DNA of 41,028 nt from Deinococci bacterium (GCA_030149325.1 JASBRS010000036.1:1-41028), one strand, 5' to 3'; positions 6,680-10,278 are shown, counted from the stretch's first letter. Made by a program: numbers and translations. The notes: generated from the letters alone by a model not told the origin.

Positions 6680-6685
6680 TATGAT
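6680..6685 (+). promoter_or_regulatory. -10 box (TATGAT) ahead of the TelA-like operon
   Basis: TATGAT matches the sigma-70-type -10 at five of six positions and lies in otherwise GC-rich sequence. It predicts a leader of about 28 bases containing GAGGGAG before the ATG at 6721. No good -35 is visible. Confidence 0.5.
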
Positions 6686-6720
6686 GCCGGTGGAGCGGCC
6701 GTCGAGGGAGTGTCCCACCA

Positions 6721-7902
6721 TGGCGGACGTGAGCACGAGCCCCCTGCAGTACCTGGACAAGGCCCTGGGTACGCTGCGCGATCTCGGCCTGGTGCCGGAC
6801 CGTGCCGAGAGCCAAGAGGCGCCGATCACCGCGCTGCTGAAGCGCATCAGCAGCCTCGACGAGGCGAAGGTCGTCGCCATCGCCCGCACCCTCAACCAGG
6901 CGTCGCTGTTCAACGACGTGGTGCGCCAGCAGGTGGCGTCGATGGACGTGGCCGAGCGCTACGAGCGCATCACCAAGGCCTTCAACAGCATCCGCGACGA
7001 CGCCAAGCGCATGGTCGACCAGATCGAGGACGGCAAGCTCACCACCTTCGAGCGCCTCGCCAACGTGTGGATGAAGGTGACGCGCGGCGATGTGGCATCG
7101 CGCTTCGACGGCATCCGACGCACCTTCCTCGAGGTCACCGACGCCACCCTCGACCAGGTACAGCGGGAGGGCCGGATCCTGGCCGCCTACCACGACTTCC
7201 GCGGCGCCCTGAAGGAGTCGGAGATCCTGGCGCTCGAGGTCCTGAAGGCAGCCGAGGCCGAGCTGGCGGCCGCCAAGCAGGCGGTGGCCGATGCGGGGGG
7301 CCGGGTCGAGGCGGCCACCGGCGACGACCTGACGGCCCGGGCCCGGCTCGAGCTGGCGCGTGACGAGGCGGTCCGCGCCCTGCAGTCGAGCGACGCCCGC
7401 TACCAGATCGCCAAGGACCTCTCCGACAACCTGACCGTCGGCTACCACACCTCCGAGGTGATCATGGCGCGGCTGAACCAGGCCACCAACGCCAAGGAGC
7501 GCCTGCACGCCCAGGCGGTGAGCTTCTTCTCCACCAACGAGACGGTGCTGACGGCCCTGAGCGCGTCGTTCACGGGTCTGTTCGGCCTGCACGAGAGCAC
7601 CCGCACGGTGGAGGCGATGAAGGAGGGCGTGAGTCAATCCCTGGAGACCCTCGCCGACATCGGCGGCAAGGTCCAGGAGGCCGCGCTGGAGGCCGGCTAC
7701 GGACCCACCGTGCGAGCGGACGCGGTGAAGAAGCTCGTCGACTCGGTGGTCGCGTTCCAGACGCGCTCGCTGGAGATCATCGAGGAGATGCGCACGCGCA
7801 GCACCGCCAACGCCCGTGAGATCCGCGAGGCCGTCGAGGACGGCAAGCGCAGATTGGCGCGCCTGGCCGAGCAGGGCATGGCGCCCGAGCCGGTGGCATG
7901 AC
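6721..7902 (+). CDS. TelA-like, all-helical cytoplasmic protein (first gene of a DUF6384 operon)
   Basis: A 393-residue soluble protein predicted to be almost entirely alpha-helical, with no signal peptide and no membrane segment. Helices rich in Ala, Glu and Lys (for example KAAEAELAAAKQAVADAGGRVEAA, about residues 178-201) suggest coiled coil. The C-terminal third, with FFSTNETVLTALSASFTGLFG followed by long amphipathic helices, resembles the toxic-anion-resistance (TelA) fold in layout and length; this is remembered similarity, not a search result. The coding frame ends in GCA TGA, the TGA overlapping the ATG of the next gene, so translation of the two is coupled. A ribosome binding site (GAGGGAG) precedes ATG 6721. 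With its two downstream partners it probably forms a membrane-associated complex of unknown function. Confidence 0.75.
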
Positions 7903-8839
7903 CGACGCGGCCGCGCCCCCACCGGCGCCCGGACCGCAGGCGGCGAACGCACCTCCCTCGGCGGCCCCCCTCGACGACGTCATGCTCGCCATGGACGTGG
8001 TGGACACGCTAAGGCAGCGGCAGGACCTGGTGGCCAGGGAGCTCGCCGAGCCGCAACGCGCTCAGGAGCTGATCGGCCGCCTGCGCAAGATCTACGCCGC
8101 GCAGGGGATCGACGTGCCGGACGCCGTCCTCGAGCAGGGGGTGGCGGCCCTGGCCGAGGAGCGCTTCGTGCACCGGCCGCCGCCCCCGTCGTTCGCGACC
8201 ACGATGGCGCGCATCTACGTGACCCGGCGCCGTTGGGGCACGCTGCTCCTGGCCGCCATCGCCATCGTCGTCGTGGCCATCGCCTCCTACCGCTCCCAGG
8301 TCGTTGCGCCACGCGCGGCCCTGCCCGCGGAGCTGACGGCCGCCTACACCAGCACCCTGGAGGTGGCGGCCGAGCCCACGGCGACCGAGCGCGCCGACGC
8401 CCTCGTGGCGGTGGGCCGTGGCGCCCTTCGCGACGGCGACGTCGCGGCGGTACGCGGAGCGCTGAGCGACCTGGAGCAGCTCCGCGCCACCCTGGAGCAG
8501 AGCTACCAGGTCCGCATCGTCAACCGACCTGGCGAGGCCTCCGGGGTGTGGCGCGTTCCCGACATCAACCCCGACGCCCGCAACTACTACCTCATCGTCG
8601 AGGCGCTGGGGCCCGACGGACGGCCGCTCACGGTGCGGGTCCACGACGAGGAGACGGGGGCCGACGTGGCCGTCCGCAGCTGGGGCCTCCGCGTCGACGA
8701 GGCCACCTACCGGGCGGTCGAACGCGACAAGCTCGACGACGGCATCCTCCAGAACGATCTGGTGGGCCGGAAGCAGCGCGGCAACCTGGAGCCGACCTAC
8801 ACGGTCGCCACCACGGGGGCCGCCATCACGCGCTGGTAG
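7898..8839 (+). CDS. DUF6384-type single-pass membrane protein
   Basis: A 313-residue protein. A Pro/Ala-rich N-terminus (1-24) leads into a conserved helical domain beginning LDDVMLAMDVVDTLRQRQDLV. It runs through KIYAAQGIDVPDAVLEQGVAALAEERF, which I recognise as the DUF6384 signature. A single membrane helix spans about residues 113-131 and is preceded by basic residues (TRRRWG), placing the N-domain in the cytoplasm and residues 132-313 outside. The outer part has a helical stretch and then a beta-rich domain (RIVNRPGEASGVWRVPDINPDARNYYLIVEA). The ATG overlaps the upstream stop by four bases (ATGA), and the third gene follows after 17 bases. The biochemical role is unknown. Confidence 0.75.
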   Translation: MTDAAAPPPAPGPQAANAPPSAAPLDDVMLAMDVVDTLRQRQDLVARELAEPQRAQELIGRLRKIYAAQGIDVPDAVLEQGVAALAEERFVHRPPPPSFATTMARIYVTRRRWGTLLLAAIAIVVVAIASYRSQVVAPRAALPAELTAAYTSTLEVAAEPTATERADALVAVGRGALRDGDVAAVRGALSDLEQLRATLEQSYQVRIVNRPGEASGVWRVPDINPDARNYYLIVEALGPDGRPLTVRVHDEETGADVAVRSWGLRVDEATYRAVERDKLDDGILQNDLVGRKQRGNLEPTYTVATTGAAITRW

Positions 8840-8856
8840 CGCGGAGGGAAGGCAGC

Positions 8857-10278
8857 ATGATCGCGGGACGTGAACCGCTGACGTCGATCGAGAAGGAGCT
8901 GGTCGGCGAGCGCCGGACGGTGGAGGACCTCGACCGCCGCATCTCCGACGGGAGCGCAAGGAGGATCGCGCTGTCCAAGGAGCAGGCGCAGGCGTACCGC
9001 GAGCTCGCCCGTCTCCGGGTGGGCTCGCTGGCGGCCGGCACGGCCGTCGCCGACTCCGTCGCCCGCGAGCTCGACGCCGTGGAGGAACGCGTGACCGCGC
9101 TGCTCCGCGCCCGGGAAGGCTCGGCCCAGGAGCTGGCGCAACGGCTCGCCGACGCCGAGACCCGCCGCACCGCGACGCAGGCGGAGCGCGCCGAGGCGGC
9201 CGCCCGTCTGGAGGCCGCCGCGGCGGCGGTGGACGCGGCCGAGGCGCGCACGCAGGACCGCCTGGAGGCCGAGCCGGCCTACCAGGCGCAGCTCGAGCGG
9301 GCCCACGAGGCCGAGCGCGTGGCGCTGCACGCCGAGGAGAAGGCGACGCGCAGCGAGCAGGAGCTCGAGGAGAAGGGGCGCGCCTACCGCCAGGACCCGT
9401 TGTTCATGTACCTGTGGCGGCGGGGCTTCGCCAGCGAGCGCTACCGCGCGGCTCCGTTGTTCCGCTGGCTCGACGGCGTGGTCGCGCGTCACGCCGGCTT
9501 CCTCGACGCCCGCCTCGACTACGCCCGCCTGCAGGAGATCCCGTTGCGGTTGCGGGAGCACGCCAGCGCACGCCGCCAGCTCGCCGAGACGGAGTTCGCG
9601 GCGCTACGCGAGCTGGACGAGGCCGCGCGCGCCAGCGACGGCATCCCGGCCCTGGAAGCGATCGAGGAGCGGGAGCGCGCGGCGCTCGCGGAGGTCGACG
9701 CGCGGCTCGAGCAGCTCGCCGGCCAGGTCCAGGCCCTGCTCGACGAGCGCCAGCGCCACGCCGCCGGCGAGGACGAGCCCTACCAGCAGGCGATCGAGCT
9801 GCTGGCCACGGGGCTGCGCAGCCAGGAGCTGCGGACGCTGTACCGCGACGCGGCCGCCACGCCGTTCCCCGAGGACGACGTCCTCATCGCTCGCCTGGAG
9901 CAGCTCAACGACGAGCAGCAGCGGCTCGAGGCGGCCGGCCAGGAGCTCCAGGCCGCCCTCCAGCAGCGGCGTGACCACGTTCGCGAGCTGGAGACGTTGC
10001 AGGCCGAGTTCAAGCGCCGACAGTACGACCAGCCCGGCCACGGCTTCGAGGACGGCGCGCTGGTGGCCACCGTCCTGGCCAACGTGCTCAGCGGGATGCT
10101 CGACCGCAACGCCCTGTGGCGCGTGCTCGATCAGCAGCGGCGCTACCGGCCGCCGCGCAGCAGCCCGACCTTCGGGTCCGGCGGCTTCGGACGGGGCACG
10201 CCGTGGGGGGGAGGCGGTCGCCCGCGGGGCGGGAGCGGGTCGCGCGGCGGGGGCTTCCGCACCGGCGGGAAGTTCTGA
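8857..10278 (+). CDS. Coiled-coil protein with Gly/Arg-rich C-terminal tail (third gene of DUF6384 operon)
   Basis: A 473-residue soluble protein. Residues 1-185 are heptad-like and very rich in Ala, Glu and Arg. Next comes a conserved-looking central segment, QDPLFMYLWRRGFASERYRAAPLFRWLDG (about 187-215), then a second long coiled coil to about residue 395. The last 55 residues become Gly/Arg/Ser/Phe-rich and disordered and end with GGGFRTGGKF. Such tails often mediate weak multivalent contacts. The start at 8857 is set by GGAGGGAAGG upstream and a 17-base gap from the DUF6384 gene. The gene ends 3 bases from the convergent TetR gene. No catalytic motif is visible. The fixed order with its neighbours suggests a scaffold within the same complex. 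Confidence 0.72.
   Translation: MIAGREPLTSIEKELVGERRTVEDLDRRISDGSARRIALSKEQAQAYRELARLRVGSLAAGTAVADSVARELDAVEERVTALLRAREGSAQELAQRLADAETRRTATQAERAEAAARLEAAAAAVDAAEARTQDRLEAEPAYQAQLERAHEAERVALHAEEKATRSEQELEEKGRAYRQDPLFMYLWRRGFASERYRAAPLFRWLDGVVARHAGFLDARLDYARLQEIPLRLREHASARRQLAETEFAALRELDEAARASDGIPALEAIEERERAALAEVDARLEQLAGQVQALLDERQRHAAGEDEPYQQAIELLATGLRSQELRTLYRDAAATPFPEDDVLIARLEQLNDEQQRLEAAGQELQAALQQRRDHVRELETLQAEFKRRQYDQPGHGFEDGALVATVLANVLSGMLDRNALWRVLDQQRRYRPPRSSPTFGSGGFGRGTPWGGGGRPRGGSGSRGGGFRTGGKF

Follow-up and report, generated by a model that had tools for sequence, protein, structure and literature searches.

The operon described here codes for a protein of DUF6384 (PF19911), a Pfam family of unknown function. 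In the open literature (subscription titles were outside the search), we found neither a paper mentioning DUF6384 nor a published account of the role of the three genes. Several described systems are suited for comparison. Eukaryotic-like Ser/Thr kinases with extracytoplasmic sensors are one of them, as one kinase of Lamprocystis bears a DUF6384 ectodomain on its outside. The PspA and flotillin scaffolds, helical proteins assembled at the membrane, provide a possible working analogy only. TelA (PF05816) and the first gene product are alike in length and in their all-helical layout. Finally, BON-LysM, LemA and DUF533 proteins (YebE type) are encoded by recurrent neighbours of the operon in several phyla, and are not homologous to its products.

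The analysed DNA (GCA_030149325.1 JASBRS010000036.1:1-41028), the whole stretch of 41,028 nucleotides being called the window, belongs to a genome of the Trueperaceae (Deinococcota). It contains three open reading frames, g1, g2 and g3, which lie in this order on the same (+) strand. While g1 and g2 overlap by four bases (ATGA), g2 and g3 are separated by 17 bases. The three-gene operon of the original prediction was thus recovered with the spacing given there, and the same gene order recurs in relatives of the class where the contigs allow. The features of the operon are:

6680..6685, + strand: -10-like sequence TATGAT upstream of g1, matched by GATGAT or TATGAT in 15 of 17 relatives
6720..7901, + strand: g1, all-helical cytoplasmic protein of 393 aa, orphan family (ORF, predicted structure, family searches)
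7898..8839, + strand: g2, DUF6384 protein of 313 aa, bitopic, predicted N-in/C-out (PF19911, E=1.1e-118; model with pLDDT 90)
8857..10278, + strand: g3, coiled-coil-like protein of 473 aa, orphan family; core conserved at residues 177-236, tail rich in Gly (ORF, alignments)
10246..10275, + strand: C-terminal peptide GGGFRTGGKF of g3, abutting the stop codon (C-termini of 76 homologues)

A single promoter had been proposed for the three genes. A strict sigma-70 consensus scan of the window did not disclose any promoter, and the -35 region belonging to TATGAT is poor. However, 16 of the 18 Trueperaceae loci have the sequence [GT]ATGAT ahead of g1 (mean of shuffled sequences 0.2), and in most of the Trueperaceae loci TTGc precedes it by 17 bases. 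The motif comparison supports a shared promoter of the trio and falls short of proof, since the Trueperaceae relatives are non-independent samples. A universal fourth gene of the cassette was not found, the flanks differing by lineage.

Searches of Pfam, NCBIfam, PADLOC and PHROGs assigned none of the three proteins to an enzyme family, as had been anticipated. Neither g1 nor g3 gave any match above cut-off in these collections. The weak matches of g3 are mainly coiled-coil proteins, and g3 is a putative coiled-coil protein itself. Sequence searches of the PDB yielded nothing significant, and the models of g1 and g2 did not match any PDB fold at E<=0.001. A homology between g1 and g3 was also considered and rejected, the hhalign value of only 13% corresponding to coiled-coil background.

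To what extent the genes belong together can be seen from their distribution. Among 111 genomes of the class, 18 contain g2 above cut-off, and g1, g2 and g3 are adjacent in every class relative whose contig allows. With a g1 profile as query, at least 495 stretches were reached, from which 80 loci were kept; 74 of them harbor the complete trio and the other six stop at a contig edge. Seven phyla possess the cassette (Pseudomonadota, Deinococcota, Thermodesulfobacteriota, Nitrospirota, Campylobacterota, Planctomycetota and Hydrogenedentota). In the order of Thiocapsa marina (127 genomes), 23 genomes contain g2. Exactly these have g1, and g3 was detected in all of them as well as in one further genome, where the copy is broken. 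The distances between loci, calculated pairwise for each of the three proteins, correlate with values of 0.87-0.91, which none of 999 permutations reached. Across the loci, g1 and g2 frequently overlap and the median spacing between g2 and g3 is 10 bases. The gene-neighbourhood survey accordingly revealed near-perfect co-occurrence, the opposite of genes that are found apart. On the basis of these sequence comparisons, it is well supported that the trio constitutes one functional unit. As a side observation, a genome of the Thiocapsa order carries only a g3 gene broken by a stop (G479:C391:1447-2780), possibly the relic of a lost cassette.

The distribution across the sampled groups is patchy. 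About a quarter of the Hyphomicrobiales genomes (80 of 297) contain the cassette, compared to 2 of 299 evenly drawn Pseudomonadota (centre genome included) and 8 of 294 genomes of the planctomycete's phylum, three of which have the short inner-domain form only. In the g1 tree, whose midpoint root serves for drawing only, the Deinococcota group with part of the Pseudomonadota and Thermodesulfobacteriota, suggesting a horizontal transfer that is as yet unproven. Cultivated carriers are Methylorubrum extorquens AM1, Pleomorphomonas and Thiocapsa.

The assignment of g2 to DUF6384 was confirmed by a score of 396 bits (cut-off 25) over the full length of the profile (positions 4-308 of 308). The protein can be divided into the following parts:

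7970..8161, + strand: cytoplasmic helical domain, residues 25-88 (AlphaFold model)
8234..8290, + strand: transmembrane helix, residues 113-131, preceded by RIYVTRRRW (positive-inside; hydropathy)
8303..8497, + strand: helical stalk, residues 136-200, differing in length among relatives (model)
8504..8836, + strand: extracytoplasmic beta domain, residues 203-313 (AlphaFold model)

Residues 113-131 form the single hydrophobic stretch of g2 (mean hydropathy 2.23). The topology predicted from hydropathy and the AlphaFold model agrees with the layout suggested before, i.e., a conserved inner domain, one membrane helix and an external beta domain. The length of the stalk differs widely among g2 homologues.

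The inner and outer halves of g2 also occur separately. In Lamprocystis purpurea (G114, L169:6604-8304, - strand), one ORF combines a membrane Ser/Thr kinase (PF00069) with the DUF6384 ectodomain, an independent use of this domain. The protein begins with a Zn-ribbon-like sequence, and the g2 stalk and beta domain make up its outer part. Genes for vWA-FHA, PP2C and FHA proteins adjoin this fusion. Hence, the ectodomain is found as the outer part of another signalling protein, as is expected of a receptor. There is one clear case of such a fusion and one possible remnant. Since the same domain is reused on a Ser/Thr kinase, the ectodomain is probably sensory. The remnant of a lone DUF6384 ectodomain in Thiocapsa (G116, L170:5895-10473) is situated near vWA genes and, as judged by eye, near an RtcR-like regulator and a patatin/CD-NTase-like pair. 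The inner half was encountered in genome G822 of the planctomycete phylum (L239:8009-10053), where g1 is divergent from a short g2 comprising only the inner domain and the transmembrane helix, with no g3 nearby. Two more genomes of the phylum of planctomycete G126 contain a short g2 alone (L237, L238). As both g3 and an ectodomain are missing beside the planctomycete g1, a sensor is not required in every form. The simplest reading of g2 is that of a receptor, the outer part of which senses and the inner part of which talks to g1. A lone DUF6384 protein was also seen on a Rhodanobacter plasmid (L044:8987-11049), without g1 or a recognised g3 and adjoining PRTRC-system genes.

The C-terminus of g3 is highly conserved. 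In the window, the final residues of the protein are GGGFRTGGKF, as originally noted, and nearly all of the 76 homologues end with FRTGGGF, FKTGGKF or a near variant. The proteins of Campylobacterota terminate with SDTFQTGGGF, those of the phage and Pseudomonas with FSSSDSF, FRTTDSF or FSTSDSF. We searched 15 carrier genomes for a codon pattern encoding glycine, F, a K/R-like residue, TGGxF and a stop. Exactly one match per genome was obtained in 13 of them; in the two genomes without a match, g3 ends with a variant (L106, L122). Because of this single occurrence, the tail peptide is private to the cassette in those 13 genomes.

The highest conservation among the three proteins was determined for g1, whose median pairwise identity is 67% (71 loci), indicating that it is under strong selection. 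Its model is all-helical (pLDDT 76) and the protein has no hydrophobic segment. Residues 289-331 are conserved, yet poorly modelled.

We tentatively favor the reading that the trio is an obligate membrane-anchored machine composed of the transmembrane receptor g2, which reads the state of the envelope, and a cytoplasmic g1/g3 assembly. It probably plays a role in envelope stress. The beta domain of g2, standing on its helical stalk outside the inner membrane, would read stress of the cell wall, osmotic stress or membrane stress, and the small inner helical domain would hand the signal to g1. Together with g3, the long, helical and strongly constrained g1 might form a cytoplasmic assembly at the membrane, in which the C-terminal sequence [GS]xF[RK]TGGxF of g3 would dock either on another component of the system or on g3 itself. 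The assembly may then strengthen the envelope or recruit further factors. The physical complex of the three proteins, the direction and nature of the signal and the output are what we infer in this scheme. A broader version, possible and held with more reserve, describes a horizontally spread transmembrane module, in which DUF6384 would be an interchangeable envelope sensor (also used by a kinase) that drives a two-protein cytoplasmic assembly by way of a private FRTGGxF code. The whole module is also cargo of a jumbo phage, possibly for control of the host envelope during infection.

Some of the genes in the vicinity of the cassette point to the envelope. Of the 80 loci, 13 have a BON-LysM gene (Kbp/YgaU type) no more than 5 kb away, on one flank or the other and pointing either way, whereas 67 lack it. 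The gene was found in Chromatiaceae, Ectothiorhodospiraceae, Pseudomonadales, Desulfobulbaceae, Desulfofustis and two alphaproteobacteria. Further neighbours within 5 kb are genes for DUF533 (6 of 80 loci), LemA and HU proteins (4 of 80 loci each). YebE is a DUF533 protein. It has been described as a target of the envelope-stress system CpxRA (PMC11633387). The neighbours in Hyphomicrobiales are different, including a BMP-type transporter and recA. Our assumption of a role in envelope stress is mainly based on the BON-LysM, LemA and DUF533 neighbours, a signal present in a minority of the loci. Together with the ectodomain on a kinase, these recurrent envelope-type genes corroborate the link to the envelope that the original prediction had drawn.

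The scaffold complex of the original prediction is conceivable. A structural scaffold without any signalling is a rather unlikely explanation. In this case g2 would anchor a polymer or condensate of g1 and g3, while its ectodomain grips the cell wall, and the system would serve cell shape, polarity or the protection of the membrane in the manner of PspA or flotillin. In favor of it, g1 and g3 are both long and helical, weak Foldseek matches connect g1 to long bundles of helices and to F-BAR domains, and the Gly/Phe tail of g3 resembles a sticker-and-spacer sequence. However, the transfer of the ectodomain onto a kinase suggests sensing, and the exact C-terminal motif has a higher precision than a generic sticky tail.

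Mobile elements are relevant to another explanation. The lytic giant Yersinia phage phiR1-37 harbors the whole cassette as g190-g191-g192 (L133:7983-11814). The match of its g3 is weak (19 bits), the call being mainly based on position and tail. PHROGs gave no informative match, phage copies included, and g190-g192 are absent from the main text of the RNA-seq paper on phiR1-37. Since the cassette of IMG/VR contig L130 is located beside an integrase and may belong to a host flank, contigs L128-L130 and L132 were left out of the phage evidence. On L130 (4944-11699), a divergent cassette lies beside genes for a tyrosine integrase and repressor-like proteins at the contig end. The cassette is also carried on megaplasmids. 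On the Pseudomonas aeruginosa plasmids L041 and L045, g1 homologues are annotated as 'merozoite surface protein 3b', a label that is apparently spurious and carried over from Plasmodium; in the open literature, no papers connecting it with Pseudomonas were found.

The patchy spread, the presence on megaplasmids and the complete copy in phiR1-37 might be reconciled with an anti-phage defence system, which we nevertheless regard as improbable. PADLOC yielded only weak coiled-coil matches, JetC and LmuB (best E 0.016, for g3). Moreover, an effector enzyme is absent, the neighbours are non-defence genes, and the conservation of g1 is unusually high for a defence protein.

It had been claimed that g1 resembles TelA, which would make the trio a system for tolerance of toxic anions or tellurite. 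Apart from the similar length and helical layout of g1, StiP-domain and peptidyl-tRNA hydrolase genes precede the cassette by a few kb on two Pseudomonas megaplasmids (L046, L047). However, the TelA profile PF05816 (30-bit cut-off) matched neither g1, g2 nor g3 at E<=10. Profiles of the three proteins were also compared by hhalign with an alignment of 23 TelA proteins, taken from carriers and from further Pseudomonadota, giving 1.5% (local) and 2.0% (global) for g1 and at best 2% for all three. TelA was not detected in the genome of the window, and in 6 of 18 carrier genomes it is a separate gene elsewhere. Membership of g1 in TelA was ruled out by both the HMM and the profile-profile comparison; length and helical layout are insufficient to call it TelA. 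A role in toxic-compound stress, founded solely on the likeness to TelA, is thereby left without support, and this type of system is very improbable. It is hardly credible that the trio is a multi-component membrane-inserting system with g1 similar to tripartite alpha-pore-forming proteins, because, although several top Foldseek matches of g1 are of the AhlB, SmhB and XaxA type and its tip (residues 289-331) is poorly modelled, all these matches have E>0.01 and low TM-scores, and g1 lacks a hydrophobic segment.

The membrane-anchored machine with g2 as receptor thus remains our preferred, tentative reading. From the original prediction, the membrane-anchored multi-protein unit was retained by virtue of co-occurrence and predicted topology, while TelA was not. 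The data reveal an obligate trio in seven phyla and a lytic giant phage, two of whose three proteins are outside any curated family, and add two partners, a domain split and a distribution to DUF6384. With an invariant tail, a g2 that can be split into halves and hosts in culture, the function of the trio is open to direct testing. Compared to the Ser/Thr kinase systems, the operon is devoid of a kinase, a phosphatase and an FHA domain. TelA is a distinct gene within the same genomes, and PspA and flotillin differ from the trio in that no match to their families was obtained in Pfam or NCBIfam. No described system fits the trio, the mechanism of which may yet prove familiar in type.
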